From Triglochin maritima (taxonomy: Eukaryota; Streptophyta; Magnoliopsida; Alismatales; Juncaginaceae): a stretch of DNA of 64,000 nucleotides. The stretch covers positions 11,318,501-11,382,500 of the forward strand of contig OY821775.1 of NCBI GenBank assembly GCA_963682175.1, read 5' to 3'. Positions 1-55,870 of this stretch are shown piece by piece (position 1 is the first letter of the stretch; every line of letters begins with the position of its first letter). The position numbers and the translations under genes were made by a program. The notes beneath the pieces are model-generated. The model was not told where the DNA came from. It ran no database searches and saw only the letters and a program-made list of their open reading frames with translations.

Positions 1-1138
1 CACATAACTGGTCGAACGCACGCAACTACAAATGGTCGAACCAAGGTCAGGGGCGGTCGACAGTTTAGAAGGTCAACTCCTAAGGTGGTCTACGAGCTGC
101 TGCTCAATCAATACAATACAAATCAAATAAACATCTCATCGGTCGAACAAATGCATCGTTCGACCGAAACCATGGATTTCTGATGTTTCCTCTAAAGCAA
201 CACCGGTTGACCAAAAATACCACCGGTCGAACCAATTATAAGTTAACTCAAACCACCGGTCGAACCAGAGTCAATAGATGGTTCACGCTTTGTCCAAACC
301 AGTCCACAAAGCAACGGTCGAACAAATCAAATAAGTGGTTGACCGTTTAGAAAGTCTAGGACCTAACCGACTTGCTACATGTATAGCTGGTCGAACGGAT
401 CTAAAGGCGGTTTACCGTTTTAATGGTCTATGCCCCTAACCGACTTACCAATAGTGTAACCGGTCGAACGGCAAAGGGATCTTGTTCGACCAAAAGATAA
501 TAGAGCTTGCCTAAAACACACAACTGGTCGATCACCCAAAGGCATCATTCGACCGTTGCAAGGTAGAAACCCACAATTACACTAGCATCGGTCAACCAAA
601 GCACAAGACGGTCAACCGTTATTCAGCAGCATCCTGCTGCACTTCCACCTCCGATGAGCCAAACGGCTACCGTTGGCTAAAGCCATCACTCACACACATT
701 GGGTGAGTCCTAACGAGAAGCTTGACATACCTTTAAGGCTTGAAGAAACCTTAGAAGATCAACTGTGAGTGCTTCCATGCCAACGAGCTTCCTCCGACGA
801 ACTCTAAACCCGAGTGACGATCACGAGATTTCCGACAACTTCACTGAGTTCTTCCTCACTTGCCTTGCTCTCCAACACTCGAGCTTCCAAGAGAGCTAAG
901 AGAGAAACGGATTTAAGGGAGAGATGAGAAAGAGAAAAAGAGAAACGAGTCAAGGGTTTGCTTTTGAACCTCCCCTCACCTCTCATCCAACCAATCACAC
1001 CAAGACACCTATTCCACAACCATCAAATCCAACTTTCCCTCAGCCAATCACAAATCTTCAATCTAACTATTAACTCAAAGATTAGGATTAGTAATAAGAA
1101 CTCAATTAGCCTAATCTAATTAGGATTAGGTTCTTACA
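1..1138 (-). repeat. Truncated gypsy-type LTR with palindrome array
   Basis: This is the end of an LTR lying in antisense orientation and cut by the left window edge. On the minus strand it begins TGTAAGAACCTAATCC at 1138, resembling the TGTTAGATCCTAACCC and TGTTATACCCTAATCC starts of the other gypsy-type LTRs here. A minus-strand AAAGGTATGTC motif at about 722-733 matches the conserved splice-donor-like motif of those LTRs. Positions 1-620 carry many GGTCGAACC, GGTCGACCG and GTTCGACCG variants. No coding sequence is visible. The other end and its target-site duplication are outside the window, so it could be a solo LTR or part of a larger element. Confidence 0.65.
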
Positions 1139-1325: not shown

Positions 1326-3092
1326 TGTAACGTCCTCAAACACAGCGGAAAATTTCAATTTAAATCATACAATCAACGAGGACATTACAAAAAGAAATAC
1401 ACACACCGGTGCACCAACATATAATATATATATGTGAATGAGTTTACAAAAGAATGTGATTACATCAAAAGATCATATACATAAAATATACACAAGTAAT
1501 CAGAACCACCTCCAAAGATAAGGAAAGCAGGATCCGGTCTCGAGCGCTCCCTCCGCCACCATCACCACCCACCTAACCTCACTCTCGGCCTGAAAGCAGA
1601 CAATGAATGCCTAAGTTTCCGGAAGGAAACCCAGTATCCCAAACCCTAACACATATATGGACAAAATGAAATATCCAAAGAACCATAAATATCACAACTG
1701 AAACACCCGCTAAGTTCCCGGGACCTCGCTCCCAGCCATAGCCAACAACAACCCGGGTCTCAAGGGTCCTCTCACCCCAACCCCTCAAACACTCGTGCGC
1801 ACAAGGCACCGCCGGTCCAAATCACGGCCAAACAACCCCTTTCTTGCCTCAGTGTTACCGGAGCCACGATTTTGCATCATTCGCTGGAGCCACGACTTTG
1901 CCTCAATTGCCGGAGCCATGGTGACAGTTATCACAACAACCTCCACGTGTCACTACTAATCACTATAGGGCCGGCCTGTCGGTCCGTCGCCCCAAAAGGG
2001 CCGGTGAACCCGTCACCTTCTAGCCAATCAATAGTAACACACACACACACACCAAAACAGTGCAAAACGGTCGAACCAAATCTGTCTTTCGGTCGACCGA
2101 TCCTCACCTAGAGAACTGACCTAACCGAAAAACCCGCCAAACGGTCGACCGACAAAGGGGGCCCGGTCGACCGAAAAGCACCAGTAGAAAATCATTTTCG
2201 CAAACCAAGTTCAAACGGTCGGACGACCCAGCATCTCCGGTCGACCGAAAACCTCGAGTACAAAACCTCCAACAAATCACATTACACGGTCGAACCACAA
2301 AACACTATCGGTCAACCGAAATCCACCAGTGCAAATCCTTCGACCAAAACATTCTACACGGTCGACCGAATCCTCACTTCGGGTCGACCGGACATTAAGT
2401 CACTTAAGTTATCGGTCGGAAGAGTCAAACTGGCGGTCGACCGTTTAGATGGTCAACGCCCCAACCGACCTACAACAGTACTTTCGGTCGACCGGCAAAG
2501 GGTCCCGTTCGACCGAAAATACCCAGAGCCTCAATCTCTCGATAGACTTGTACCACCGGTCGACCACCACGAAGGTAGCGTTCGACCGGTGCGAGAGATT
2601 TTGCCCAAAATACACTATAACCGGTCGACCGAACCCATACACCGGTCGACCGTTTACAGTTCAGAAACTGTTGTGCAGGTCCGACGAGCCAATTGGCCTA
2701 CCGTCGACCGCTCCCACTCCCACACTAATAATAGGTGAGCTTGAAAGCAAGCTTGACATACCTTAAGGCTTGAAGAAGCTTTCGAAGAAACCACGGCGAG
2801 CGCTTCCTCGCGAAACCTCTTGCAACGACGATCCTCGCTCCTCCGGCGACTCCAACAACAACTCTCGTGCTCTCCGATCACCACCCAACGCCGACCTTCC
2901 ACTTGCTATCGAGAGAGACGAGTCTAGAGAGAGAGAGAGTGAGTGAGAGTGATGAAATCGTGAGAGAGAGAGAGAGAGTAAAACCCAAACCTTATATACT
3001 TTTCTTCCACTCGATCTCAGTCGTCCATCTCAATCCATCACTAATCCTCCCCTAAACACAATTAAAACATAAGTAAGGATTAGGGTATAACA
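1326..3092 (-). repeat. Solo LTR, gypsy type (copy 1), with target-site duplication
   Basis: The LTR is bounded by TGTAACGTCC on the left and GGTATAACA on the right, giving TG...CA ends on either strand. It is flanked by the direct repeat CCTGA (1321-1325 and 3093-3097), so it is a complete solo LTR of 1767 bp. Read on the minus strand it has a TATA-like box (plus-strand CCTTATATA, about 2991-2999). It also has a donor-like AAG|GTATG (GT at 2760-2761) and an acceptor-like TTTCAG|G (AG at 1590-1591). A dense array of CGGTCGACCG-type palindromes lies at about 2065-2710. It is close to the solo LTR at 50948-52755 and related to the LTRs of the intact element at 17920-25682. Confidence 0.9.
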
Positions 3093-5170: not shown

Positions 5171-6583
5171 TCATACAGCATGAGAATTGGATATCCATTT
5201 GGTGACAACCTCATCAAGGGCAATGGAGGAAGACCCACCTTCTCCTAATGCCTTGGAAGCTTCTTCCTTCAGCTCTTTCACTTTGGCTCTAATCTTCTTC
5301 CCTTCTTCTCCCTCCATCAATTCCTTCACTACTCTTTCCACCTCTTCTTTCTTAACTAATCCTTCTTCCTCCTTCACTCTTATTGCAACCTTTGCGTCCT
5401 CAGACAAAAGAACAGAGTTCATCTTCTGCTCCGCGTATAACGGCCACGCGATCATCGGCACACCATGCACTACGCTCTCCAACGTCGAGTTCCACCCGCA
5501 GTGGGTCAAGAATCCCCCGGTGGCCTCGTGCTTCAGCACGGCCACTTGTGGAGCCCACGACGGAACTACCATCCCAACTTCTTTGGTTCTCTCGAGGAAA
5601 CCCTCAGGTAAGAAAGCGAAGGGGTCTTCCTTGCTCATGGGGCTGAAGAACGACTCGTCCGTCTTGCTCGGGCTTCGAACCACCCACAAGAATCTGCATC
5701 CGCTCGACTCCAGACCGTTGGCCAACTCGGTAAGTTGGACAACCGAAAGGGTCCCACCACTTCCGAAAGACACGAAAAGCACGGACGACCTAGGTTGCCT
5801 GTCAAGCCAACCCAGACATTCCGAGTCGGACTCCTGATCGGAACCGGATCGGATAAGCGGTCCAACCGGGTAAATTCGCGGACCGTTTTGACCCGGCTGG
5901 GTCAGTGCTTGGATGGCTCCTGGCTCTATCGCATTGAAGCTATTCTCCAGTATTCCCTCCGCCAGAGGATAGCGGCCCATGTGGTGTACGAGCCACATGT
6001 GGGCGTCGTTCTTCCGGTCCTGCGCCGGGTCTAAGAGCTCGCTCCCGTGGATGGGGACACACCCTGGGAGTCGAATCGGCTCGGGAAGGTCCCTGTATTC
6101 GGAGTCTGTGCTCCTCATGATTGGCGGCAAGTGATGGAAGAGACTCAAACACATGGCGGTTGACGGGAAGAATATGTAGTGTGGGACCCCGAGCTCCTTC
6201 GCCACGTCAAACGCGTCCGTTCCGAAAAGGTCAACAACAAGAGCCACTAGTCGTTTGTTGCGTTGGAGATCGGACACGACATCGCGAAGAGCAGGAAGAG
6301 AGCGGAGGACGACGTGAGACACGATGGTCTCTACCTTGGCGGTCGAGGGGAGGTCGTGGAGGTCGGGTGTGGGGAGTTGAACGCTTTGGATGGACTCGGG
6401 TAGGGAGTCGAGGAAGATTTTGACTTTTGGGGAGGTGTCGGTGACGAGAAAGGTGACGGTGAAGCCGTAGCGGCTGGCGAGGAGCTTCGCAAACTCGCTT
6501 AGGGGGATCAGGTGGCCCATCCCCGGTGAGGGGAGGATGGCCACATGAGGTGCCACAGATGGTTGGAGTTTTTGTCCTTCCAT
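5171..6583 (-). CDS. UDP-glycosyltransferase, UGT72B type (UGT-A)
   Basis: A 470-residue, intronless family 1 glycosyltransferase, expected to move glucose from UDP-glucose to phenolic acceptors such as monolignols or hydroquinone-like compounds in the cytosol. The N-terminal acceptor domain has PSPGMGHLIP, with the likely catalytic His24, and VVDLFGTDAFDVA with its partner Asp near residue 123. The PSPG sugar-donor box runs from W343 to Q386 (starts WAPQVAVLKHE, contains HCGWNST, ends YAEQ). I chose the ATG at 6583 because UGT-B and UGT-C start at the same point and a TATA box lies about 90 bp upstream. No signal peptide or membrane segment is visible. The 3' 650 bp appear identical to UGT-B, suggesting recent gene conversion. 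The family is certain, the acceptor is not. Confidence 0.95.
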   Translation of the reverse strand: MEGQKLQPSVAPHVAILPSPGMGHLIPLSEFAKLLASRYGFTVTFLVTDTSPKVKIFLDSLPESIQSVQLPTPDLHDLPSTAKVETIVSHVVLRSLPALRDVVSDLQRNKRLVALVVDLFGTDAFDVAKELGVPHYIFFPSTAMCLSLFHHLPPIMRSTDSEYRDLPEPIRLPGCVPIHGSELLDPAQDRKNDAHMWLVHHMGRYPLAEGILENSFNAIEPGAIQALTQPGQNGPRIYPVGPLIRSGSDQESDSECLGWLDRQPRSSVLFVSFGSGGTLSVVQLTELANGLESSGCRFLWVVRSPSKTDESFFSPMSKEDPFAFLPEGFLERTKEVGMVVPSWAPQVAVLKHEATGGFLTHCGWNSTLESVVHGVPMIAWPLYAEQKMNSVLLSEDAKVAIRVKEEEGLVKKEEVERVVKELMEGEEGKKIRAKVKELKEEASKALGEGGSSSIALDEVVTKWISNSHAV

Positions 6584-6670
6584 AGTGGAGAAGTGAATCG
6601 AATTCGGTTGATAATTGAGGTGGTGGTGGTGGTCAGGTGGGGGTATCTCTACGTTAAGGGAGGTGTTCAA

Positions 6671-6678
6671 TATATATA
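6671..6678 (-). promoter_or_regulatory. TATA box of UGT-A
   Basis: TATATATA lies about 90 bp upstream of the UGT-A start codon on the minus strand. The same arrangement, followed upstream by a GAGAAGTTGAC-like block, is found at about 31312-31335 for UGT-B, where transposons now separate it from the gene. The conserved position supports a real core promoter. Position 6654-6656 (TTA) is the empty counterpart of the Harbinger insertion site in UGT-B. Confidence 0.75.
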
Positions 6679-6727
6679 GAAAGAAAAGAGAAGTTGACAG
6701 CGATGTTTTTAGTTTATGCAGAACCAA

Positions 6728-8594
6728 TTTTTGAATTTGATTGGTAGCTAGAAAGCCAACATGGAGATACTGATGGTTACGTAACCAAAAAAATCCAATT
6801 AAAATTTGCTTCTGGTCGGTTTTTAATTACAATATTTCGTTTGGAGTCTAGTACGTACCCATTCCCAGGAGAAGAACTTCAATTTAGTGGGCAAACTCTA
6901 CCTTATATTTCATTTACATCATGCAGTCTTCCGAATCTTGACCTGTAAATTGGGGAAAGGTTAACGTTCAATTTTAAAAGTTGAACTTATACATGAAAAA
7001 ATGGAACCAAATTTAAATTATTTATTTTAGCTTGTTATGGGTTTGAAGTTCTTTGTAAATCAGCTTAGTTACTACCAAATTCTTGATTCCAAATGGAAGT
7101 AGGTAGACATGTCTCCAAATTTCTTCTCCTCGATATCTACCGGTCCTTTTAAGTTCTAGAACACTTGACTTCACGTGGAAATCTAGAAGACCTTGATTGA
7201 TTGGCCGGCGAGGAGCATCAGAAGATGCTGCAATAAGAGAGAAATTGAAGGCCCTCCGAGTTAGACTGTACTTCTGAAATTTTTAATGTTTTGTTTTGGT
7301 AGTCCAAGGTATACTCATGTGGCTGAATTGTTTAAGCTGTGATTGAGTTTCTAGAAGGCCTCCACAATAAATTCCTTCGAGGGGTGACTGCATTTTTAAG
7401 CTATGAATATGTAGGTGTCCTTGGCTCTTGCTGATAAATCCCTTTGAGGCCGGGTTAAATGTTGCGATCCTAAGATGAAATTATTTGTTGAGCTGTAGTA
7501 CGATTCTCAAGTCTAGCTTATACATATCATATCTTTACTTAACTAAACAAAGAACATTTACAACCCCAACGTTATATTCGATCATAATATACTTAAACAT
7601 AGTACAACACAAGTCACTAACTCAAAGAAGAGATCATTTTCCATAATTAGAACTAAAATTTGACATATTTCTTTCATCATCTTTCTTCATTCTTTGTAAT
7701 GCATCTTGAAATGTCTTACCTGGCGAGAAACCTCAACCCATTTTATGTTCCATCACTAGGATCCACATCTATGTGATAGCATAAATGTAATCAATAACAA
7801 TTATAATTATCATTTGTCGCAGAGCCTCGTAAAACAATTACTTAGAGTTAGGTTGCTTAATTTATAGATGCAACTACCTATGAATTGCCGACATAATTCG
7901 TATCACCTCTAGTATCTTATGTGACTTGAATGAATTACCGATATAACATGTATCCTTTGAATTAAGGACATCATTCACGATTCGAGATTCTAGATATGGC
8001 TCACAAGTCACATGCACCCAAGGGGTGTAGCAGTTTGTTCCATCGTCAAACAAGATTGTAGAGGTAGCTCCTTACTAATTAAGGATGTAGCACTAAGTTC
8101 CTGTAAAGTATTGACGTTTTCTTTTAACTTTGGGGTTATTTTTGATATCACCCCCCCCCCCCCCCCCCCCATTTGCTCAGATAGTTTGGGGGTACTCTAA
8201 CCCTACATTTGGTTGCCCCCTTTTGGTAGTGAAGAGTGTGTGAGTGGGGGAGAGAAATGAGCTCATTGGATCCTCACCGTAGCTTTACGGAGCCTCGCTG
8301 GAGCTAGTCTAAGCTCACCGGAGCAAGTTGTGGGTCCGTCGGAGCTCACTAGGAAGTTTCATCGGAGTTTGTATCAAGCTTGGAGAGGAGTGTTTGGTTT
8401 TTTCCTAAGGTATGCCTTGGGTCTCACTAGAGTCAACCTCTTCTTGGTTTCTTGATTCAAAGGAATAGATCTTATAGGAGTTAAAGAAGCTTTGGAAGTT
8501 CTTATACCTTGGATTTCAAGTTGACAGTGATTTCAAGTTGAGATTTGGAAGGGGATGACCTTTACGTGCTTTTCCTTGTGTGAGTTTTATGGAT
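6728..8594. other. Intergenic DNA upstream of UGT-A
   Basis: No gene is recognised. The first roughly 130 bp resemble the displaced UGT-B upstream region near 31380-31510. A run of 20 C residues lies at 8151-8170. From about 8220 the sequence becomes less AT-rich and contains CTAAGGTATGCC at about 8405. That is like the donor-like motif of the gypsy-type LTRs, so a fragment of such an LTR may lie here, broken by the gag-only retrotransposon that starts at 8600. That last point is weak. Confidence 0.4.
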
Positions 8595-8599
8595 GAGAG

Positions 8600-10142
8600 T
8601 GTTGGCTTTTTGGCCTTAATCTATGTTTTGATGATTTAATTAACCTAATCTTAATTATGATGATGTAGAGTAGCACACATATTGCATTGCATATATATAG
8701 TATTGTGCTAACCTCTACAGGTGATCAAGACTCATGGAAGGAAGGAAATCAAGTCAAGATTTGTAATAAAGCTAAATGAAAACTTGTAATCTTGATTTTA
8801 TTTTGAGTCTTAGGAACATGTGTAAATTGAGCATACAAGAGTTGAAAACCAATCACATACACAATAGGTTCCCTATAGAAGTCACACACGAAATTTCACA
8901 TTATTTGGACTTCATTAGATCACCCAAACCTTAGTCGGAAATCACTTATAAACTTAAACCCAGATTTCATGTGTGAACCGGTCGACCGAACCAGTTCTCA
9001 GTTCGACCGGTTTATAACAGACTCTCCACAGTGATTTTACCGAACTCTACCGGTCGACCGGCTCTACCTTTTCGGTCGACCGATCCCGGATTTTAATATG
9101 GCCGTTTTTCTTGTCGTATTCCTATAACGGTCGTATTCGTATAAAACAAAACTTAACCCCAAAAAACATTCGGTAACCGGTCGAACGAAGACCTTGTTTC
9201 GGTCGACCGGTTGAACATATTTTCAGAAACCAAATTCCCTGCTATCGGTCGACACATTTCTCGTTCGACCGATTGACCTTTGTCTCAACCGAATCCCCTT
9301 ATCGGTCGACCGCCCCATACTTTGGTTCGACCGATTCACTTAAGTAGAGTTAAGTTCTAGCTCGTTTGTCCGACCGAATATTCTTTTGTTCGACCGTTCT
9401 CTTTGAAATCATGTCAACGGTCGACCGGTTTACTAGTTTCGGTCGACCAGTTCTGGACAGATTTGCAGCCCGATTTTCTGCTTTGTGTATCTTGCACAAA
9501 ACCCAATCAAATCTATCCCCAACGGCTAGAATACCTTAGGAGCTTATAAATAGAGGATCAAGACTTGTTGTTAAAACAACTCTCCAACTCCAATTGTCCC
9601 AACTCATTAGAGAGAAACCTCAATCCTCAAAGCTCCCATTTCTACACTCTTTAAGCCTAAACTTCACACATTTGATCATATACTCATCCTACTCAAAGTG
9701 TGCTCAATTAGAGAGTGAATCCCACTCAAGGTTACATTTGTTGTAAAGAGAGCAAGGGTCTTGGTGAAAGCCCAAGACAAGAAGCAAGGATTTCGGTGAA
9801 AGCCCGAAGTGATTCTCTCGGTTTGTGAGAGGTGGTGCCAAGCTCGGCGAGGGTTGTTCGCGAGCTTGAAGACTTGTAAACGGCGTTGCTCCCGGCCCGG
9901 AACGGGGAGGCATAGTGAAGACGCAAGAGGGGCTCGAACGGAGATTCGAGAGGGGCTTGCAAGAGAGGACGTAGGCGCGGCCGAACCTCTGTAAAACCGA
10001 CGTGTCTTCTTTGTGGTTTGCATTACTTTCTACTTGTGTTTGATTTAGTTTAATTTCCGCTGCATTTCTTTGATCGATCAACCAAGTAGTTAATTAGGGC
10101 TTAAATAGTGATTAGTGGACCCATAACCCACACGATCCTACA
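8600..10142 (+). repeat. 5' LTR of the gag-only element
   Basis: The LTR runs from TGTTGGCTTTTTGG to ATCCTACA, 1543 bp. The U3 part has about 14 copies of the GGTCGACC-type palindrome between 8979 and 9445, mostly in pairs about 21 bp apart. A TATA box (TATAAATA) follows at 9545-9552. The region after the TATA box has open frames of 115-125 codons on the minus strand. They are repeated exactly in the other LTR and I do not consider them genes. Confidence 0.93.
9545..9552 (+). promoter_or_regulatory. LTR promoter TATA box
   Basis: TATAAATA followed by GAGG lies about 100 bp downstream of the last palindrome of the array. The same box is in the 3' LTR (12937-12944) and in the related solo LTR (47351-47358), so the order palindrome array then TATA box is conserved in this family. 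Confidence 0.7.
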
Positions 10143-10144
10143 TT

Positions 10145-10156
10145 TGGTATCAGAGC
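10145..10156 (+). other. Primer-binding site (initiator Met-tRNA type)
   Basis: TGGTATCAGAGC lies two bases after the 5' LTR and is the usual plant retrotransposon priming site complementary to the 3' end of initiator methionine tRNA. The same motif is found after the 5' LTR of the gypsy element at 20048-20059. Confidence 0.88.
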
Positions 10157-10193
10157 CTTGTTCGTTAATTTTGTTCTTAATCGATAAATTAAC

Positions 10194-11363
10194 ATGGCTC
10201 TTAATGCATCCACACCTTTAGAATCTTGTAAACCACCACACTTTGATGGAAATAATTTTGTTTCATGGAAAAGTAAAATGATATCATTTATTAAATCCAT
10301 GAACATTAACATGTGGTTTATGATTCAAACTCCATATGAATCACCTAGATATGATTTTAGTAAATGGAGTTTAGAAGATGAAAAAAATGCATTCCTAAAT
10401 GCTAAGGCTATGAATGTCATATTTTGTGCATTAGGAGATGAACTTTTTAATGTTGTTTGCTCATGTGATAGTGCTTATTCAATATGGCAAACATTAGAAA
10501 AGAATTTTGGTGAAGGAGATTCACCAACCGGGAAGAAGGGAGAAGCAAATCCTAAGGATGTAGCTCAAGCAAAGAAAATGGAGATTAACTCAACATCTTC
10601 ATCATCATTAAGCTCATCCGATGGAGAAAGTGAAGATGAGGTATCCTCTAGCTCTTCTTCAAGTAGTAGTTCAAAAGATAATGCCCATGATTTTAATGAA
10701 CTACAAAATGCATTTCAAAGATTATTTGAAAAATATAAAGAACTTCACAAGACTAATCAATTAGCAAATGAGCAAATCCATGATCTTAAATGTCAAAATG
10801 CATCTATCTTAGATGATAAAGTTGATTTGCTTGCTAAAATTGAAGTTCTAACTTTAGAGAATGCATGCTTGAAGGAAGAAAATTTAAATGTTAAGAATAC
10901 ATCATCTCATGCAATTGATAGTCATATGCTAGAAATTGACACTAATGACTTGCTTATTAAACTTGATAAATCTCATTTAGAAAGCAAACAATTATTACAT
11001 GACTTAAATTGCATGAATGAAAAGGTTGCAAACTTAGAGATTCACATGCTTAACATGAATGAAAAGCATAATTCTATGATTAAAAATCTAAATTGCTTAA
11101 ATGAATCTCTAGCAACTAAAAACAGTGAACTTAATGTCTTAAATGAAAATTTGTCAAATAAATTGCATAAGTTCACACATGGCAATAAAAACAATTTTTA
11201 TGTTAAAAACTTTCCTATTCAAATTAATGTTAAACATAATTTTGCCATGAAAAAGAAAGTAAGTGTAGAGGTACCAAAATCAACTTGGATTTGGGTACCA
11301 AAAGCTAAACTTAATGGACCCAAGCAAAAATGGGTACCAAAATCTACACTTGTAGGAGCTTGA
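10194..11363 (+). CDS. Gag-like protein of copia type, pol-less element
   Basis: A 389-residue protein starting 52 bp after the LTR. Residues 10-105 resemble the gag N-terminal domain of plant Ty1/copia polyproteins (PHFDGNNFVSWKSKM, then SIWQTLEKNFGE). A serine and acid-rich stretch follows (about 133-160), then a long stretch likely to form coiled coil (about 165-330), then WIWVPK and QKWVPK near the end, as found in copia polyproteins before integrase. The usual CCHC zinc knuckle is absent, and the frame stops before any protease. The protein may assemble particles or carry the RNA for an autonomous partner. The open frame in a young element suggests it was functional until recently. Confidence 0.82.
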   Translation: MALNASTPLESCKPPHFDGNNFVSWKSKMISFIKSMNINMWFMIQTPYESPRYDFSKWSLEDEKNAFLNAKAMNVIFCALGDELFNVVCSCDSAYSIWQTLEKNFGEGDSPTGKKGEANPKDVAQAKKMEINSTSSSSLSSSDGESEDEVSSSSSSSSSSKDNAHDFNELQNAFQRLFEKYKELHKTNQLANEQIHDLKCQNASILDDKVDLLAKIEVLTLENACLKEENLNVKNTSSHAIDSHMLEIDTNDLLIKLDKSHLESKQLLHDLNCMNEKVANLEIHMLNMNEKHNSMIKNLNCLNESLATKNSELNVLNENLSNKLHKFTHGNKNNFYVKNFPIQINVKHNFAMKKKVSVEVPKSTWIWVPKAKLNGPKQKWVPKSTLVGA

Positions 11364-11980
11364 GGAAGAGATTGGTGGTGACCGGGTGAGCCAAAGCGTC
11401 GAATTCGAATCCGGTTGCATCACCAAATCAAGATTGGAGCTATTCAAGATTCAAGTTTGGTATAAAATTTCTATCTCTAAAATTTCTGAAAAATAGCTCT
11501 AATCTAGTTTATATGCTAAATTGTCATATCTTTAGAAGTTCAATTCATTGCAAATCATATACCCTATTCATTGAAAATCATTTATCACATCCATTGATTC
11601 TAAATGTCAAATTTTAAATGGATGTTAGAATAAGGCTTAAGTTGAAACTTAAATGAACTTAACTTGAATCATACTCATCGTTTCCATTTAGCCTTATTGA
11701 TAGGGGGAGCTTAAATGTTATATCTTTTATTAGAGTAATGAAGTGCAAAATTTAGGGGGAGCAACTTCATTACAAGACATCCAAATTCTATGCTTAAAGT
11801 CATATTTTTTATTTTTGATGGATGTCAAAGGGGGAGAGATAATTAAGGGGATAACTTGGAATTTGGCATAAAATTGAACAAAAACTATGCACATCCATAG
11901 GGGGAGCATTAATATGCATAGTTTACATATACAAATTCCATGTATTTAGATAGAATTAAGATATAGGTTGTCATCATCAA

Positions 11981-11990
11981 AAAGGGGGAG
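11981..11990 (+). other. Polypurine tract
   Basis: AAAGGGGGAG lies just before the 3' LTR and is the expected plus-strand primer. Several similar GGGGGAG blocks occur upstream at about 11700-11910, common in plant copia 3' leaders. The stretch 11364-11980 between gag and this tract is AT-rich with no coding sequence. Confidence 0.75.
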
Positions 11991-11992
11991 AT

Positions 11993-13534
11993 TGTTGGCT
12001 TTTTGGCCTTAATCTATGTTTTGATGATTTAATTAACCTAATCTTAATTATGATGATGTAGAGTAGCACACATATTGCATTGCATATATATAGTATTATG
12101 CTAACCTCTACAGGTGATCAAGACTCATGGAAGGAAGGAAATCAAGTCAAGATTTGTAATAAAGCTAAATGAAAACTTGTAATCTTGATTTTATTTTGAG
12201 TCTTAGGAACATGTGTAAATTGAGCATACAAGAGTTGAAAACCAATCACATACACAATAGGTTCCCTATAGAAGTCACACACGAAATTTCACATTATTTG
12301 GACTTCATTAGATCACCCAAACCTTAGTTGGAAATCACTTATAAACTTAAACCCAGATTTCATGTGTGAACCGGTCGACCGAACCAGTTCTCAGTTCGAC
12401 CGGTTTATAACAGACTCTCCACAGTGATTTTACCGAAATCTACCGGTCGACCGGCTCTACCTTTTCGGTCGACCGATCCCGGATTTTAATATGGCCGTTT
12501 TTCTTGTCGTATTCCTATAACGGTCGTATTCGTATAAAAAAAACTTAACCCCAAAAAACATTCGGTAACCGGTCGAACGAAGACCTTGTTTCGGTCGACC
12601 GGTTGAACATATTTTCAGAAACCAAATTCCCTGCTATCGGTCGACACATTTCTCGTTCGACCGATTGACCTTTGTCTCAACCGAATCCCCTTATCGGTCG
12701 ACCGCCCCATACTTTGGTTCGACCGATTCACTTAAGTAGAGTTAAGTTCTAGCTCGTTTGTCCGACCGAATATTCTTTTGTTCGACCGTTCTCTTTGAAA
12801 TCATGTCAACGGTCGACCGGTTTACTAGTTTCGGTCGACCGGTTCTGGACAGATTTGCAGCCCGATTTTCTGCTTTGTGTATCTTGCACAAAACCCAATC
12901 AAATCTATCCCCAACGGCTAGAATACCTTAGGAGCTTATAAATAGAGGATCAAGACTTGTTGTTAAAACAACTCTCCAACTCCAATTGTCCCAACTCATT
13001 AGAGAGAAACCTCAATCCTCAAAGCTCCCATTTCTACACTCTTTAAGCCTAAACTTCACACATTTGATCATATACTCATCCTACTCAAAGTGTGCTCAAT
13101 TAGAGAGTGAATCCCACTCAAGGTTACATTTGTTGTAAAGAGAGCAAGGGTCTTGGTGAAAGCCCAAGACAAGAAGCAAGGATTTCGGTGAAAGCCCGAA
13201 GTGATTCTCTCGGTTTGTGAGAGGTGGTGCCAAGCTCGGCGAGGGTTGTTCGCGAGCTTGAAGACTTGTAAACGGCGTTGCTCCCGGCCCGGAACGGGGA
13301 GGCATAGTGAAGACGCAAGAGGGGCTCGAACGGAGATTCGAGAGGGGCTTGCAAGAGAGGACGTAGGCGCGGCCGAACCTCTGTAAAACCGACGTGTCTT
13401 CTTTGTGGTTTGCATTACTTTCTACTTGTGTTTGATTTAGTTTAATTTCCGCTGCATTTCTTTGATCGATCAACCAAGTAGTTAATTAGGGCTTAAATAG
13501 TGATTAGTGGACCCATAACCCACACGATCCTACA
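11993..13534 (+). repeat. 3' LTR of the gag-only element
   Basis: A 1542-bp copy of the 5' LTR with the same palindrome array, TATA box (12937-12944) and ATCCTACA end. The differences noticed are a few single bases and a one-base change in an A-rich run near 12536. It is followed directly by the target-site repeat GAGAG. Confidence 0.93.
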
Positions 13535-17919: not shown

Positions 17920-20044
17920 TGTTAGACCCTAACCTAGGGTTAGTAGACTTTTGTTGGTTAGAGTGTGGTTTGCATGGGGAAATGGGGTTGCAGGTGGGTG
18001 CATGGGAAGGGGAAGAGGCGGGGTTACTGTAGCATCCGAGTTAAATAGGGCTTTTCTTCTTCTTTCTTCTCCTTTCTCATTTCTCCTTCCTCATTTCTTC
18101 CTTCCCTTCCTTGCTGGTGCGTGTGGTGGCAAGCAGCTGAGGAGGAGACCGGAGATCGCGCGGCGTGAGGCGTGCGGAGTCGAGCGCGCGGGGAGATCAC
18201 CGGAGGCGACGTGCGTGAGCGGAGCTCCGGCGTTTCGTCGTCGTGGTTGAGGTATGCCGCTCCTTAGTGTGGTTTGTTTATTACCCTCATGTGAGGGATG
18301 CGTTGGTCGAGTCGGGGGAGGTCGGAGACCTCTCCGGCGACGCGTTTCTTCTAAAATCCTCGGCTGGCGCGAGGTTGAAGACGACCAACGGTCGACCGGA
18401 CCCTTCGGGCGGTCAACCGTTTTAGCACTGTTTGCCCGACTTTAACCTTCACCGGTCGAACGATGCCTTGGTGCGGTCGACCGGTAGCGCATTATTGCTG
18501 GTGAGTTGGGATTTTCTACCTGTTGTCGGTCGACCGGTCCTTGTTGTGTTCGACCGGAACTTAAGTGTACCTGTTAGTTTGCATGTTTCGTTCGACCGAT
18601 CGATTGTTGTTCGACCGATTATATGACTTAGAATAATAGGTTGACCCTGTCTGTTTTCGGTCGACCGAGACCCCTGAGTCGGTCGACCGATAGAGTGGAA
18701 TTTAGTGTTGACCAGACTCCGGATTTTGACCTCGTTCGGTCGACCGGTTTTAGACCCTTGTTCGACCGTTGGGGGGTTCTGTTATGAGCGCAGCGGTAGA
18801 CCGTTTTAGGAGTACGGTCGACCGATTCCTTTCTGGAACCGGTCGACCGAATCACCTCTTCCGGTCGACCGTTTGGGCCCAGGACAGAATTCCTGGTTCC
18901 CTTTTTGGACACCAACTTTGCCACGGAAACCCGTGTCCTCGCCTTGTGCGTGAGCCGGGAGGTGACGGTGGGCGCGTGATGCGTGCCTACCCAGGGACCG
19001 CCGTTGGGAAGAGTGTGGGTGTTCGGGACGCGTCACCTCCATGTATGGACCGTGACCTTTGAGTTGTTTGGACTTATTGTAGTATAGCAGGCCTGAGGGA
19101 TCGCGGATCCCAGTGTTGATGTTGTGCGGGCACGCAACTGGTGTTGGGTGAGGTGACTACCGGCCCACGGGCTACGGAGGTTGCTACCCTGCTGTTATAG
19201 CGGCGCTGTTGGTGTTCGCGGCTCGAGGAGCCTGATGACCTGGCAGACTTCGGTCTGGTTTTGTCCGATGCTGTGCCGGACTGTTGTGATGGACCACCGA
19301 TGCTGTGCCGGTGATGCCGCCGAGGTTGTGCCGGCGATGGTGATTGTTGAGCCGAGGCTGTTCCGGCTATGTTGTTTTCCTCGGCTGGGCACCTACCGAG
19401 ATGTTGTTGTTATACCTTCCGGGCGACGGCCCCGTTGGTCCCTGTGGCTCCGACCACTGAGATTTGCAGATCTGTATTCTATCGGCCCGCAGGCGTGACA
19501 GAGGCTCCCTGCCGAACCCTTGAGTAGTGTAGCTGCGTGTGGGGGGTGCGATGTCGCGTGCTGTAAGACTGCATGTGCCTGCAGTAGGTCTCCTCGGGAG
19601 ACTCGTTGTTGATTGTCGGACTGATGTCCTGTTTTACCCTTCGGGGGGACTGTTTTACTTTCTGTTGATGCCATGACATGCTACTAGTATGATAGGTTCA
19701 TTGTGTAATGCATGCATATATAGGTGAGTTGGCATACGGAGTTTCCTTCTGGAAACTCAGGCATTGTTGTTATATATTTTCAGGACCGCAGTAGGTCCAG
19801 TGGGGTGGTGATCGGCGGGCGCGCGCGTTTGGAGTCGGATCCTCTAGTCAGACCACTGAGGTCCACATGATTACGTTTATCTTCCCTTGTCGTTTTGTTG
19901 TAATCATGTATTCATTTTGGCAAACTCTGATGTATTATGGTGCACCGCCTATTTATTTATGAAAAGTAACAGTCCCGCCTTGATTATTGTGCTCTTGATC
20001 TTGTTTATGAATTTTTAAATTTTCCGCTGTTTCGGGATGTTACA
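17920..20044 (+). repeat. 5' LTR of gypsy element, full length with palindrome array
   Basis: The 2125-bp LTR runs from TGTTAGACCCTAACC to GGGATGTTACA. A donor-like GAG|GTATGCC (GT at 18252-18253) and an acceptor-like TATATTTTCAG (AG at 19782-19783) could remove a 1.5-kb leader intron. The CGGTCGACCG-type array (about 18388-18872) lies inside it. Positions 18208-19271 are absent from the 3' LTR. Confidence 0.9.
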
Positions 20045-20047
20045 ACT

Positions 20048-20059
20048 TGGTATCAGAGC
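20048..20059 (+). other. Primer-binding site of gypsy element
   Basis: TGGTATCAGAGC starts four bases after the 5' LTR and matches the complement of the 3' end of initiator methionine tRNA. Confidence 0.88.
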
Positions 20060-20170
20060 GGTCGATTCCTATGCGGTTCCCAATGAAATCACCCTTGTAG
20101 TAATAGGAAGCATGCATTTTATCTTTTAGCATGCATACATGGCTGAAGTTGTGATTGTTTCTTCTGTCAG

Positions 20171-23100
20171 ATGGCACCTAGGCGCGTGAGGAGTTCTACA
20201 CGCGATCGTACTTCCAGTGACGACACATCTGGTGCCCATTGGGACAGGTTGGGTGAGTTTCTGGAGCGTCAGGCAGCTCAGAGCGCCCAAGGCGGAGTGG
20301 GAGCTGAGCACGATCGGTTCATGCGTCAGCACCCGCCGACTTTCGATGGCAGGAGGGCCCCAGAGGTCGCAGAGGACTGGATCTTCCGTATGGAGAAGAT
20401 CTTCCGTGCTATTGGAGTAGCACCTGAGAGGATGGTGGAGCTGGCCACCTATGTGTTTGACGGCGAGGCCGCCAACTGGTGGAGGTCTACGTCCACAGTT
20501 CTGTTTGAGGATCGTGTGGATGTGAGCTGGGAGGAGTTCTTAGAGGTGTTTCATGAGCAGTACTTTCCCCAGCATGTCAGAGATCAGAAGAGGGAGGAGT
20601 TCATGTCGCTCGAGCAGAAAGAGATGACTCTGGCGAGCTACATCAGCAGGTTCAACGCCTTGGAGCGTTACTGCCCAGAGATTTGTGTGACCCCAGAGCA
20701 GCGGGCGAGGAAGTTCGTGAAGGGACTGAGACAGCCGCTTCGTTCTCGGGTGATCAACAGCATGCCGCGGACCCTTGCAGATGCGGTGAAGCACGCTACG
20801 ATCATCGAGCAGGACCAGAGGGAGTGTAATCAGGAGGCGCGGAAGGCGCCAGTGAGCACAGTTAGCAGGGCAGCTGATCGTGGGGCAGGAAGACCGGGTA
20901 AGAGACCCAGGTTCGATGGAGGAGGAGCACATCAGTCAGGGGCGTGCACTTACTGCGGGAGGTTCCATCCAGGGCAGGAGTGTCCCCGTCGGACTGGAGT
21001 GTGCATGGGTTGTGGTCAGATGGGACACTTTGTCCGTGACTGTCCTCAGAGGCAGGGCGAGCCGAGCAGGAGGCCAGGACCACCAGTAGTAGGCAGAGGC
21101 GGAGGCAGCCGGCCAGTTGTTCCGCCGGGCCAGAGCAGGAGGACCGGGCGGGTCTTTACTATCCAGGCTGAGGAGGCGAGGGACTCCAACACCGTCGTGG
21201 AAGGTACGCTTTCAGTTTCTGGTTCTGTAGCGCGCGTGTTGTTTGATTGTGGCGCCACTCACTCCTTCATTTCGGAGAAGTTTGCTGGCGAGTTGGGTCG
21301 GACCCCTGTGCGGCTGACTGATGTTTTGGAGGTCAGCACGCCCATGGGAGAGGTGGGCACTGTGGGGAGCTATTTCCCCGGCACCACAGTGGCTTCGGGA
21401 GACCAGGATTTTCCGGCAGATCTGGTCTTGTTACCGATGGTGGACTTCGACGTCATACTGGGGATGGACTGGCTGTCACAGTACGACGTGCGAGTCTTTT
21501 GCCGTGAGAAGAAGATCCTAATTCCGATGGAGGGTGTGCCAGATGTTCTGATAAGAGGTGCGAGGAGCAGAGGGGGTCGTCTGATTGTGTCTGCGGTTAA
21601 GGCACAGAGACTGTTACAGCAGGGATGCAGAGCGTTTGTGGCCACGCTAGTAGTCCCTGATCCTGAGACAAGGAGGCTGGAGGATATAGAGGTAGTGCAG
21701 GAATTTCCAGACGTTTTTCCAGCAGAGATTCCAGCGTTACCACCGCACCGAGAGATTGAGTTCAGCATCGAGTTGGTTGCGGGTACGACACCTCAGTCGA
21801 AGGCACCTTATCGGATGGCACCTGCTGAGTTGACGGAGCTGAAGAAGCAGTTGCAGGAGTTGATGGAGTCCGGGTTCATTCGACCGAGTGTTTCTCCATG
21901 GGGAGCGCCCGTGCTCTTCGTGAAGAAGAAGGATGGATCGTTGCGGATGTGCATCGACTACAGGATGTTGAATAAGGTTACCGTTCGGAACCGGTACCCT
22001 TTGCCCAGGATTGATGATTTGTTCGATCAGTTGCAGACGGCGAGAGTGTTCTCGAAGATCGATCTGCGTTCGGGCTACCATCAGTTGCGGATCAGGGAGG
22101 CGGATGTTCAGAAGACAGCCTTCCGGGCGCGGTACGGCCACTATGAGTTCTTGGTGATGCCTTTTGGACTGACGAATGCGCCTGCGGCATTCATGGATCT
22201 GATGAATAGGACCTTCCAGCCGTACCTTGACAAATTCGTCGTGGTGTTCGTGGATGACATTTTGGTATATTCGCCTGACAGGGAGCAGCATCGAGAGCAC
22301 CTGAGGATTGTGCTGGGCATCTTGAGGGAGCAGCAACTTTATGCCAAATACACGAAGTGTGAGTTCTGGTTGGATCAGGTGGCTTTTCTGGGGCATATTG
22401 TGTCAGCAGATGGGATTTCAGTGGATCCGGCGAAGGTCGAGACAGTGACTCAGTGGAGAGCCCCGACGAGCGTGACTGAGATCAGGAGTTTCGTAGGTCT
22501 GGCAGGGTATTACAGGCGGTTTATCCAGGATTTCTCCAAGCTTGCGTCACCGCTGACAGCATTGACGCAGAAGGGCGTCAAGTTCGTTTGGTCCCAGAAG
22601 TGCGAGGACAGCTTTCAGGAGCTAAAGAGGCGTTTGACGTCAGCACCTATTCTGACACTACCGAGTGGCAGTGGAGGCTACGTGATTTACAGTGATGCAT
22701 CAGGAGTAGGCTTGGGTTGTGTCCTGATGCAGCATGGGAAGGTGGTCGCGTACGCTTCGAGGCAGCTGAAGGCGCATGAGAAGAACTACCCTACGCATGA
22801 TCTGGAGTTGGCGGCGGTAGTTCATGCATTGAAGAGCTGGCGGCACTATCTGTATGGCGAGCAGTTCGAGGTCTTCACCGATCATCAGAGTCTGAAGTAC
22901 TTGTTCTCTCAGAAGGAGCTGAACATGAGGCAGCGCAGATGGCTCGAGTTCCTTAAGGACTACGACTTCACCATTTCCTATCACCCGGGGAAGGCGAATT
23001 CGGTTGCGGATGCACTGAGCAGGAAGGTGGAGGTTTCTGTTGCGAGTCTGTGCATCCAGGAGTGGAGGCTACTCGAGGCTTTGTCTGAATGGAGTCCATT

Positions 23101-24610
23101 CACCGAGGGTTCAGAGGGAGCAGTGGTTGCTGGGCTTCGGGTGGAGCCGCAGACTGTCTCACGGTTGGTTCAGGCTCAGCAGGGGGATGATGAGTTAGCT
23201 AGTCTGCTGCAGTTAGCTTCCAGAGATGGATCAGACTTCAGTGTGGGGGTTGATGGTGGTCTGAGGTTCAGGAGTCGGATCTGGGTGTCGAAGGTTGATG
23301 GGCTGAGAGATGACATCATGGAGGAGGCACACAGATCTAGATACACCATTCATCCGGGGAGCACAAAGATGTATAAGGACCTGCAGCGGAACTTCTGGTG
23401 GAAGGGTATGAAGAAGGACATTGCGGAGTTTGTGGAGCGATGCTTAGTCTGCCAGCAGGTGAAGATTGAGCATCAGAGGCCGGCAGGACCAATGCAGAGT
23501 ATTGAGCTTCCTGAGTGGAAGTGGGAGCACGTGACGATGGATTTTGTCACGGGTTTGCCGAAGACGAGGAGGTTCCACGACGCGATTTGGGTGATAGTCG
23601 ATCGACTGACCAAGTCGGCGCACTTCTTAGCGATCCGGACCACGTTGCCTTTGGAGGGTCTAGCTAAGTTGTGCGTGGAGGAGATAGTCAGGTTGCATGG
23701 AGTGCCGGTGAGCATCATCTCAGATCGAGATCCTCGTTTCACTTCCAGATTTTGGGGGAGTCTGCAGCAGGCGTTGGGGACGCGTCTGAAGTTCAGTACA
23801 GCATTTCATCCGCAGACAGATGGTCAATCCGAGAGGACGATTCAAACCCTGGAGGATATGCTTAGAGCATGCACACTGGATTGGGCCGGGCACTGGGATG
23901 AGCACTTGCCACTGATAGAGTTTGCCTACAACAACAGCTACCACTCGAGTATTGGGATGGCACCGTACGAGGCGTTGTACGGGAGGCCTTGCAGATCACC
24001 GGTATGCTGGACTGATGTGGGCGAGAGGCAGTTAGTGGGGCCAGAGATTGTGCAGATGTACTCAGAGAAGGTGGATGTGATCAGGAGGAGACTGACCACA
24101 GCACAGAGCAGGCAGAAGAGTTATGCTGATCGACGAAGGCGGGTATTGAGTTTTGAGGTGGGCGATCACGTGTTTCTGAAGATTTCCCCAGCCAGAGGTG
24201 TGATGAGGTTTGGGAAGAAGGGGAAGCTCAGTCCGAGATATGTTGGACCATTTGAGATCCTCGACCGAGTTGGAGAGGTTGCCTACCGGATTGCCTTGCC
24301 GCCACAGTTTTCGGGTCTGCATAATGTCTTCCATGTGTCGATGTTGAGGAAGTATGTGGCAGATCCGTCGCACGTTATTGAGATAGCGGTGCCAGAGATT
24401 CAGCAGGACTTGTCGCTCGAGGAGAGACCAGTCGAGATTGTTGATCGCATGGATCATCAGCTCAGGAGGAGGACCATTCCAATGGTTAAAGTCAGGTGGC
24501 AGCATCACAGCGAGCGCGAGGCCACTTGGGAGGTCGAGGAGGATGTCAGAAGGCAGTATCCAGAGCTTTTCGGTGAGTGTTTGCTTGATTTCGGGACGAA
24601 ATCCTTTTAA
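20171..24610 (+). CDS. Gag-pol polyprotein, Ty3/gypsy chromovirus
   Basis: An uninterrupted 1479-residue polyprotein starting at an ATG. Domains in order are: gag capsid (about 50-210); a CCHC-type zinc knuckle in [14 protein letters not shown], preceded by another Cys/His cluster (258-292); aspartic protease with DCGATHSF (D359); reverse transcriptase with FVDD (693-696); RNase H with SDASG (D842) and TDHQS (D904); and integrase with the zinc-binding H...CLVC module (to 1094). The DDE catalytic triad is near D1124, D1185 and E1221. A C-terminal chromodomain-like module follows (about 1420-1466, with ATWEVEEDV). All key residues are present. It would make particle, cDNA and integration enzymes for its own element. 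Confidence 0.96.
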
Positions 24611-24621
24611 GTTGGGAGGAT
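24611..24621 (+). other. Polypurine tract of gypsy element
   Basis: GTTGGGAGGAT lies between the polyprotein stop codon and the 3' LTR and is the likely plus-strand primer. The gag-pol frame ends immediately before it. Confidence 0.65.
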
Positions 24622-25682
24622 TGTTAGACCCTAACCTAGGGTTAGTAGACTTTTGTTGGTTAGAGTGTGGTTTGCATGGGGAAATGGGGTTGCAGGTGGG
24701 TGCATGAGAAGGGGAAGAGGCGGGGTTACTGTAGCATCCGAGTTAAATAGGGCTTTTCTTCTTCTTTCTTCTCCTTTCTCATTTCTCCTTCCTCATTTCT
24801 TCCTTCCCTTCCTTGCTGGTGCGTGTGGTGGCAAGCAGCTGAGGAGGAGACCGGAGATCGCGCGACGTGAGGCGTGCGGAGTCGAGCGCGCGGGGAGATC
24901 ACCGGAGGCTGTGCCGGACTGTTGTGATGGACCACCGATGCTGTGCCGGTGATGCCGCCGAGGTTGTGCCGGCGATGGTGATTGTTGAGCCGAGGCTGTT
25001 CCGGCTATGTTGTTTTCCTCGGCTGGGCACCTACCGAGATGTTGTTGTTATACCTTCCGGGCGACGGCCCCGTTGGTCCCTGTGGCTCCGACCACTGAGA
25101 TTTGCAGATCTGTATTCTATCGGCCCGCAGGCGTGACAGAGGCTCCCTGCCGAACCCTTGAGTAGTGTAGCTGCGTGTGGGGGGTGCGATGTCGCGTGCT
25201 GTAAGACTGCATGTGCCTGCAGTAGGTCTCCTCGGGAGACTCGTTGTTGATTGTCGGACTGATGTCCTGTTTTACCCTTCGGGGGGACTGTTTTACTTTC
25301 TGTTGATGCCATGACATGCTACTAGTATGATAGGTTCATTGTGTAATGCATGCATATATAGGTGAGTTGGCATACGGGGTTTCCTTCTGGAAACTCAGGC
25401 ATTGTTGTTATATATTTTCAGGACCGCAGTAGGTCCAGTGGGGTGGTGATCGGCGGGCGCGCGCGTTTGGAGTCGGATCCTCTAGTCAGACCACTGAGGT
25501 CCACATGATTACGTTTATCTTCCCTTGTCGTTTTGTTGTAATCATGTATTCATTTTGGCAAACTCTGATGTATTATGGTGCACCGCCTATTTATTTATGA
25601 AAAGTAACAGTCCCGCCTTGATTATTGTGCTCTTGATCTTGTTTATGAATTTTTAAATTTTCCTCTGTTTCGGGATGTTACA
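24622..25682 (+). repeat. 3' LTR of gypsy element, internally deleted
   Basis: This 1061-bp LTR matches the 5' LTR at both ends. It lacks the segment equal to 18208-19271, joined at a GC dinucleotide shared by both breakpoints (at about 24908-24909). The missing part holds the donor-like site and the whole palindrome array. Since both LTRs are copied from one template, the loss probably happened after insertion, unless it is an assembly artefact. Confidence 0.9.
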
Positions 25683-28297: not shown

Positions 28298-28712
28298 TTT
28301 GGAAGGAAAAAAAAAAGTCAATCGAACGTGGCTTATGATTGAGGTGGTGGCATGTGTATACGTTAGAGCATCATTAACGGCCACGTAGTTCCCGGGCGTC
28401 CTGCTTTCTCTCTCAGCCACGTCAGCTTCTCTCTCTGCTACGTCAGCACAAACCAACCCCCCTACAAAATCCTTAACCATTACCCAATCCACCCAGTCAC
28501 GCTACAGTATTTGTTGCCACGTCATTATTTTTATTCTTCTCTCCAAAACTCTTTCAACAATCAACAAAATATATTAATAATCATTATCGTAATTATTTAA
28601 CATCAACAATTCATTCGTTTTTAATTAACATTTAATTAAAAAACACGAAAAAATTATTAAAATTAAGAAAACCACAAATTAATAAATTTAAAATCTAAAA
28701 TTTAAAATTTAG

Positions 28713-28999
28713 GACCTATAGTATGCGCGTGACTCAAAAAAGACGAGATGATTGGATCGAGGCTTGGACTTCTCAGTCATCGAGGAGATACAGTATGCGC
28801 GTGACTCACAAAAGACGAGACGATTGGATCGAGGCTTGGACTTCTCAAGCATCGAGGACCTACAGTATACGCGTGACTCACAAAAGACGAGACGATTGGA
28901 TCGAGGCTTGGACTTCTCAAGCATCGAGGATCTACAGTATACGCGTGACTCACAAAAGATGAGACGATTGGATCGAGGACCTACAGTACGCGCGTGACT
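28713..28999. repeat. 72-bp tandem repeat in Harbinger element
   Basis: There are nearly four copies of a 72-bp unit that includes GCGCGTGACTCACAAAAG and GATTGGATCGAGG. The last copy is shortened. The unit is a multiple of three with no stop codons in at least two forward frames and one reverse frame, so it produces repetitive open frames on both strands. These are not convincing genes. Confidence 0.9.
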
Positions 29000-52614: not shown

Positions 52615-52652
<38 letters not shown>

Positions 52653-52755
52653 CATTTATATACTTTTCTCCGACTCGATCTCAGCCGTCCATCTCAATCC
52701 ATCACTAATCCTCTCCTAAACACAATTAGCACATAAGAAGGGTTAGGATCTAACA
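50948..52755 (-). repeat. Solo LTR, gypsy type (copy 2), with target-site duplication
   Basis: This 1808-bp LTR is bounded by TGTAACGTCC and GGATCTAACA and flanked by CTTGG (50943-50947 and 52756-52760). It is closely similar to the solo LTR at 1326-3092. The minus-strand donor-like GTATG begins at 52402 and the acceptor-like AG is at 51236-51237, with the palindrome array (about 51705-52350) between them. A long GA repeat lies at about 52548-52650. Confidence 0.93.
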
Positions 52756-55798: not shown

Positions 55799-55870
55799 TA
55801 TTGACAAGTACGGATTGGATTGGATTGATAATTGTGATCGTGGATGGAGAGTTTGGTTTGGTTTGGTGCG

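Follow-up and report, generated by a model that had tools for sequence, protein, structure and literature searches.

Short repeated boxes in the non-coding DNA of transposons have been described in several systems. The LTRs of Tnt1 and Tto1 contain short repeated protein-binding enhancer boxes that drive transcription, which are similar to the arrays considered here in being short boxes repeated within an LTR, although the sequences differ; to our knowledge, two-turn mirror pairs common to different superfamilies are not known among enhancer boxes of this type. The VANDAL/VANC system of Arabidopsis is based on sequence-specific anti-silencing motifs, and its protein VANC acts on DNA transposons. 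The likeness lies in clusters of short motifs in transposon non-coding DNA that are, or in the present case may be, read by a protein, whereas VANC is encoded by the element itself and no common element protein is apparent here. In addition, a palindrome-rich cis-region of maize Sirevirus LTRs was reportedly linked to hairpins and small RNAs by Bousios et al. in 2016; this region also consists of palindromic arrays in the regulatory part of the LTR, whereas the arrays reported below show no conserved pairing of left with right sites.

The closest described feature, reported by Bousios et al. (2010, PMC2829016), is the group of palindromic CGG-CCG repeated motifs (RM) that Sirevirus LTRs have upstream of their TATA box. 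In the available portion of that article, an RM is a CGG-CCG palindrome present in eight or more copies, and the RM of a Vitis Sirevirus is CGGTCGACCG, with 12 copies, 10 of which are in the LTR. According to the same portion, RM clusters define predicted CpG islands, RM are called Sirevirus-specific by comparison with classic Ty1/copia elements, and their function was left open, with promoter tests called for (PMC2829016).

The Sirevirus array resembles the Vitis RM, as presented in the available text, in that the 10-mer is the same, most of its many copies are in the first LTR half and upstream of the TATA box, CpG is abundant and flanking sequence is divergent. The first-pass annotation of this DNA was aware of no described system with such a layout, which is wrong for the Sirevirus element since CGGTCGACCG has been published for a Vitis Sirevirus LTR (PMC2829016); the Sirevirus array is a new member of an already known feature. 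In that portion, RM are treated as single boxes, with no mention of fixed pair spacing, inner/outer asymmetry or helical phase, and gypsy LTRs are not part of the account, whereas here the sites form mirror pairs and gypsy LTRs have arrays, within a predicted intron. Neither the arrays of gypsy LTRs nor the mirror-pair rule nor the phasing appears in the available parts of PMC2829016 and PMC3414828, which represent a partial check of the literature, and they may be in print elsewhere, possibly in Bousios et al. 2016. As far as this has been partly checked, gypsy arrays in a predicted LTR intron, the mirror-pair unit and the slower change of sites go beyond the available text of PMC2829016.

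Palindrome arrays and the LTRs that contain them

The window, i.e., the whole stretch of 64,000 bases that was analysed (42% GC), contains UDP-glucosyltransferase genes and LTR retrotransposons, a content that we read as that of plant DNA; no tRNA and no Rfam family at gathering score were found in it. Three related UDP-glucosyltransferase gene copies are located at 5171-6727, 26885-28492 and 53400-55843, the third in two pieces approximately 1 kb apart; the Pfam run among these copies covered the second (26885-28492). A tandem repeat with a 72-bp unit (28711-28978) is found near a glucosyltransferase gene. The LTRs and arrays are as follows.

1-776, minus strand: diverged gypsy LTR truncated at the window start; contains array A0 and a conserved donor block whose GT is at 730
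1326-3092, minus strand: solo Ty3/gypsy LTR containing A1, flanking repeat CCTGA
2068-2710, minus strand: array A1, within predicted LTR intron 1590-2761 (donor AAG/GTATGT, acceptor TTTCAG/G)
8600-10142, plus strand: 5′ LTR of the Sirevirus-type, gag-only element at 8600-13534, which has GAGAG as its flanking repeat
8979-9449, plus strand: array A2, 13 sites with up to two mismatches, forming seven pairs with a weaker site, upstream of a TATA box
9545-9552, plus strand: TATAAATA box, 96 bp past the last base of A2
11702-11990, plus strand: five copies of the polypurine octamer AGGGGGAG, starting at 11702, 11754, 11829, 11899 and, for the terminal copy, 11983
11993-13534, plus strand: 3′ LTR of the gag-only element, 99.6% identical to the 5′ LTR over the aligned 1548 bp
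17920-25682, plus strand: chromovirus-type Ty3/gypsy element with gag, RT and chromodomain matches, flanking repeat TAAGT
18389-18871, plus strand: array A3 in the chromovirus 5′ LTR, within predicted intron 18252-19783
45311-48835, plus strand: diverged gypsy LTR, interrupted by the Sirevirus-type solo LTR nested in it; intron predicted at 45623-48601
45722-46072, plus strand: array A4, the portion of the split gypsy array to the left of the nested LTR
46106-47880, plus strand: Sirevirus-type solo LTR, with TATAAATA at 47351 and a run of 13 C located 34 bp from the end
46446-47253, plus strand: array A5, 14 sites, 98 bp upstream of its own TATA box TATAAATA
47890-48140, plus strand: array A6, the portion of the split gypsy array to the right of the nested LTR
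50948-52755, minus strand: solo Ty3/gypsy LTR containing A7, flanking repeat CTTGG, 83% identity to the A1 LTR
51706-52351, minus strand: array A7, within predicted LTR intron 51236-52402

All 46 exact copies of CGGTCGACCG in the window are inside LTR arrays. When up to two mismatches are allowed, 123 of 133 sites fall within nine array regions (a tally that takes in the copy of A2 at 12350-12850), and the remaining 10, none of them exact, are spread over the other 58,942 bases. Dinucleotide shuffles of the arrays (20 per array) produced on average 0.1-1.35 sites, against 4-19 observed. Each of the four copies of two other repeat families (33601/38148 and 13557/15397) is devoid of sites, as is the interior of the gag-only element, and the chromovirus interior has two inexact ones.

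Among the eight arrays, with sites of up to three mismatches and the near-identical copy at 12350-12850 excluded, 52 of 123 neighbouring gaps measure 20-23 bp, whereas 2000 trials of random placement gave 12.5 such gaps on average and never more than 25. With sites of up to two mismatches, such gaps account for 17 of 35 in A1/A7, 4 of 14 in A0, 3 of 11 in A4/A6, 7 of 15 in A3, 5 of 12 in A2 and 4 of 13 in A5. The presence of paired palindrome arrays in these LTRs is confirmed. The earlier count of approximately 14 sites in seven pairs at 8979-9445 holds if the weaker site at position 9363 (three mismatches) is added to the 13 better ones; the spacings of the seven pairs are 21, 22, 22, 16, 21, 24 and 22 bp. 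Every other range named in that annotation indeed has an array, but 46446-47253, which had been assigned to the gypsy type, belongs to the nested Sirevirus-type solo LTR.

Sirevirus-type elements

Judged by its non-coding hallmarks, the element at 8600-13534 is a Sirevirus. Several polypurine tract (PPT) octamers AGGGGGAG before the 3′ LTR, the terminal one followed by AT and then by the TG of the LTR, are characteristic of Sireviruses in the available text of PMC2829016, and the element has five copies, with the terminal AGGGGGAG at 11983 followed by AT and TG. The same text mentions an inverted repeat with arms averaging 28 bp, one next to the terminal PPT and one in the 3′ LTR; here, ATCATCAAAA before the PPT and TTTTGATGAT in the LTR make a 10-base match, identified by eye. 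The end of a Sirevirus LTR reads CA / ATTGG / TATCAGAGC in that source, and CA TTTGG TATCAGAGC is found at 10141-10156, with an exact primer-binding site (PBS) and one of the five intervening bases different. A C-rich integrase signal near the LTR end is a further hallmark (PMC2829016); the A2 LTR has no long C run. The RM themselves, defined there by copy number and by position upstream of the TATA box, have their counterpart in the 13 sites of A2 and the 14 of A5, each upstream of a TATAAATA box. The 3′ LTR contains the same array as A2, at 12372-12841. With regard to coding capacity, a copia gag domain (PF14223) was detected at 28.9 bits against a cut-off of 27, and no pol ORF of at least 200 aa is present in the element.

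The solo LTR at 46106-47880 is a diverged second LTR of the Sirevirus type, which interrupts the gypsy LTR's own array. No flanking repeat or obvious target-site duplication was seen for it, and no matching flanking repeat was seen for the gypsy LTR at 45311-48835.

Ty3/gypsy LTRs

Although RM were called Sirevirus-specific, the same arrays are found here in Ty3/gypsy LTRs, and the gypsy arrays are therefore classed as working alike, not as Sirevirus RM. The chromovirus assignment of 17920-25682 is based on matches to PF03732, PF00078 and PF00385 (the chromodomain, 26.8 bits against a cut-off of 25.1) on three ORF pieces. Its 3′ LTR (24622-25682) is without the 1,059-bp segment 18208-19266 of the 5′ LTR (17920-20044), outside which the two LTRs are over 99% identical, and it has no array because of this deletion. 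Such a loss of the entire array from one recent 3′ LTR weighs against the regulatory reading given below. Splicing was considered as the origin of the shortened 3′ LTR and rejected, the missing segment not matching the predicted splice sites.

In the LTRs of A1, A7, A3 and A4/A6, the order of features is the same: promoter-like sequence, pyrimidine-rich leader, donor-like site, array, short hairpin and acceptor-like site. The donor-like sites read AG/GTATGT or AG/GTATGC and the acceptor-like sites TTTCAG/G in all four; no acceptor was found in the A0 piece (1-776). A1 and A7 have a clear TATA-like box (TATATAA) and A3 and A4 weak ones (TTAAATAG and TTAAAAAG), and the gypsy arrays are downstream of this box. 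On the strength of these splice-like signals, the gypsy arrays are predicted to sit in an intron of the LTR leader. The LTRs of A0, A1, A4/A6 and A7, together with the more distant A3, are related, and their arrays are not fully independent of each other.

The hairpin, GTTTCC-N4-GGAAA(C/T), is located shortly before the predicted acceptor in these four otherwise differing gypsy LTRs (GGAAAT in A7):

1614-1631, minus strand: hairpin, A1 LTR
51260-51277, minus strand: hairpin, A7 LTR
19740-19757, plus strand: hairpin, A3 LTR
48556-48573, plus strand: hairpin, split LTR

Organization of the mirror pair

The unit of the arrays is a mirror pair, CGGTCGA(C/A)C...G(G/T)TCGACCG, whose inner sides are more variable than its outer sides. 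This was examined in 50 pairs spaced by 19-24 bp, with no more than three mismatches in either site, a count that overstates independence because of the common ancestry of the gypsy LTRs and the presence of some alignable gypsy spacers. Variation is greatest at base 8 in the left site, where C was found 31 times, A 18 times and T once, and at base 3 in the right site, with 31 G, 18 T and one A; the corresponding outer positions vary in 3 of 50 each. The end bases also vary, in 10 (left first), 14 (left last), 15 (right first) and 4 (right last) of 50, so that inner ends are more variable than outer ones. Since the variable positions are mirrored, the pair is a dyad of the half-site G(G/T)TCGACCG. 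The inner variants (A at left base 8, T at right base 3) occur 36 times per 100 sites, compared with 5 per 100 for their outer equivalents (p = 4e-8). In A2, A3 and A5 combined (20 pairs) the figures are 12/40 and 1/40 (p = 0.0015) and in A5 alone 5 and 0 (p = 0.04), while the test in single arrays is not significant for A2 (4 vs 1, p = 0.32) or A3 (3 vs 0, p = 0.22). Mismatches as a whole follow the same trend, with 33 of 500 bases in outer halves and 86 of 500 in inner halves.

When the pair pattern was searched in the window with spacers of 5-40 bases, 25 of the 29 matches had 13 or 14. Gaps of 25-119 bp lean to multiples of 10.5 bp (R = 0.43, n = 54), a tendency that is strongest in A5 (R = 0.87, n = 8), present in A2, A3 and A5 combined (R = 0.49, n = 21) and weak in A3 (R = 0.28, n = 7); for adjacent gaps in A1 or A7 alone, the best period is 8-9.5 rather than 10.5. 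The strengths of the two sites of a pair are not coupled: both are exact in 5 pairs, with 6.5 expected, and the numbers of mismatches on the left and right are uncorrelated (Spearman -0.03). A likeness of the sites to the tRNA B box or the WRKY W-box was unsupported and was dropped.

A scan of IMG/VR for the pair pattern with 11-15 spacer bases returned 36 stretches, in which the spacer has 13 bases in 18 cases, 11 in 7, 12 in 6, 15 in 3 and 14 in 2, a few of these being repeats of one sequence; the 13-base spacer (21 bp spacing) is thus common there as well. Five or fewer sites per 500 bp were present in 33 of the 36. The three denser stretches, namely L007 (a CGGT simple repeat), L010 (a GC-rich contig with mixed palindromes) and L021, were inspected closely, and the layout of the window is absent from them. 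The scan is uninformative on plants. In L010, CCGACCGGTCGG and CGGTCGACCGGTCGG palindromes are clustered at positions 8250-8660, in an arrangement that differs from the plant one.

Conservation of sites and spacers

Comparison of the A1 and A7 LTRs revealed differences at 11 of 201 bases in sites and 68 of 439 in spacers (p = 2e-4), with 164 of 1117 outside the array; in this one LTR pair, sites are approximately three times slower to change than spacers. With three mismatches allowed, the contrast is smaller (23/264, or 8.7%, in sites; 208/1339, or 15.5%, in spacers; p = 0.003) and the value outside is 7.8% (12/154), because stray matches then widen the array. The possibility raised earlier that sites evolve as fast as spacers is contradicted by the A1/A7 figures. 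The claim that sites and spacing are conserved is upheld, for the sites in this LTR pair and for the spacing in the sense that it is constrained and partly helically phased.

For spacers, sites were masked and the LTRs of A0, A1, A2, A3 and A5 were used as queries against the masked window. No spacer match was found between A2 and A5, between A1 and A3, or between gypsy and Sirevirus LTRs in either direction. The only match of A1 to A3 is just before the acceptor, and those of A2 to A5 are outside the arrays. A1 matches the split LTR at the promoter, donor and acceptor and at two smaller places, one of which is an 18-base spacer of array A6, and A0 and A4 have 116 bp of array in common (76%). 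The statement that DNA between sites is unlike between families is therefore accurate for gypsy vs Sirevirus, A2 vs A5 and A1 vs A3, but not for the 116 bp shared by A0 and A4 or the 18 bp shared by A1 and A6.

These comparisons bear on two alternatives. One is that a single array moved between families through recombination or nested insertion, the layout then reflecting ancestry rather than convergence, and the Sirevirus-type LTR lying within a gypsy array (A4/A5/A6) does show a route by which arrays can be brought together. However, none of the five masked queries gave a spacer match between gypsy and Sirevirus arrays, so that block exchange between the two, which had been named as a possible refutation, was rejected and is considered very unlikely. 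An old exchange whose spacers have since turned over is compatible with these results, and would in itself be a sign that the sites are under selection.

The other alternative regards the arrays as a neutral by-product of tandem duplication or mutation bias. Some traces of duplication do exist, including one 28-bp internal duplication in A5 (offset 62), unmasked self-matches in A1 and A7 at offsets of 71-74 bp, and peaks of z ~3 in the masked ungapped test (A3 at 72, A5 at 102) among approximately 155 offsets. Nevertheless, the A1 units do not match each other once masked and the masked search gave one 28-bp duplication, in A5, on which grounds tandem duplication was rejected as the main cause of the layout; in addition, the rate of change in sites, for all their CpGs, is about a third of that in spacers, and the same dyad is present in separate families. 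The chance that a neutral process is responsible appears next to negligible.

RNA folding and CpG content

If array transcripts folded as hairpins feeding small RNAs and silencing, stable folding would be expected, and A1, A2 and A3 do fold more stably than mononucleotide shuffles (z -6.7 to -9.4, 25 shuffles each); the location of the gypsy arrays downstream of a TATA-like box is also compatible with this idea. However, the extra stability is mostly lost when sites are kept and only spacers are shuffled (z -0.5 to -2.1), which indicates that most of the folding strength stems from the palindromes themselves. Moreover, selection for hairpins predicts an excess of complementarity within pairs, and none is present: left and right sites form 7.88 Watson-Crick pairs of 10, compared with 8.09 for shuffled partners, and 99.1% of 5000 shuffles were at or above the observed value (50 pairs). 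In A2, A3 and A5 combined (20 pairs), the values are 8.05 and 8.14, within chance (83.9% of shuffles). The joint pairing variant was observed 4 times, with 6.5 expected, and no excess of compensatory changes between arms was detected in the 50 pairs. The lack of covariation between the two sites of a pair argues against conserved RNA pairing as the force that maintains them, and the paired structure proposed in the first-pass annotation is disfavoured as the selected feature. The small-RNA explanation is quite improbable, and the hairpins may be a by-product.

Each exact CGGTCGACCG contains three CpGs, and the five arrays measured are enriched in this dinucleotide (observed/expected 1.39-1.89, against 0.89 for the window); for spacers alone the ratio is 0.48-1.20, the highest being that of A2. 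Between A1 and A7, the sites retained 49 of 56 CpGs, the array spacers 11 of 18 and the sequence outside the array 35 of 71. In a logic comparable to that of the VANC/VANDAL motifs, the sites might be bound by a methyl-CpG-dependent reader or by a factor that keeps the LTR unmethylated, which would be in keeping with the CpG content and its retention in sites. Nevertheless, the CpGs of array spacers are kept about as poorly as those outside, and nothing points to a broadly protected zone, with the possible exception of A2. A role in silencing or anti-silencing is regarded as unlikely, albeit less so than the small-RNA explanation.

A candidate cis-regulatory code

The reading that we prefer, with a probability of roughly 60%, is that the arrays are cis-regulatory DNA of the retrotransposons, made of composite mirror-pair sites for a putative host DNA-binding protein and enhancer-like in action. 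The composite site would span approximately 32 bp and comprise CGGTCGA(C/A)C and G(G/T)TCGACCG, separated by a spacer that is mostly 13-14 bases long. Two protein units, or two dimers, would sit on one face of the helix as mirror images of each other, at a distance of two turns. Several composite units would jointly act in an enhancer-like manner on the promoter of the LTR; in Sirevirus-type LTRs they would do so from a position upstream of the TATA box, and in gypsy LTRs from the predicted first intron of the LTR. From sequence features, we infer the binding of a protein to the pairs, activation rather than repression, and the reality of the intron. The protein is taken to be the host's because the gag-only element and the chromovirus have no obvious candidate in common, and activation is favoured because a selfish element would benefit from keeping such sites. 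A host protein that recognizes mirror pairs on one face of the helix would account for the orientation, spacing, base tolerance, phase, lack of covariation and position independence. The dimeric or tetrameric host factor on one helix face that had been suggested before fits best with the spacing, partial phasing and conservation.

A broader version, which we put forward tentatively and consider somewhat short of an even chance, is that one host transcription or chromatin factor controls retrotransposons of two superfamilies in this plant by reading a fixed code of mirror pairs at two helical turns, that the two superfamilies have converged on this code from different positions, upstream of the promoter in Sireviruses and within an LTR intron in chromoviruses, and that the CGG-CCG palindromes of Sireviruses in other plants are host-specific versions of it.

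A composite site defined by orientation, spacing, tolerated base and phase, and present in two superfamilies, offers both a probe for the factor and a search rule for genomes. If it is true that one host factor controls several retrotransposon superfamilies, the code would represent a lever on the relationship between the plant and its most abundant DNA.
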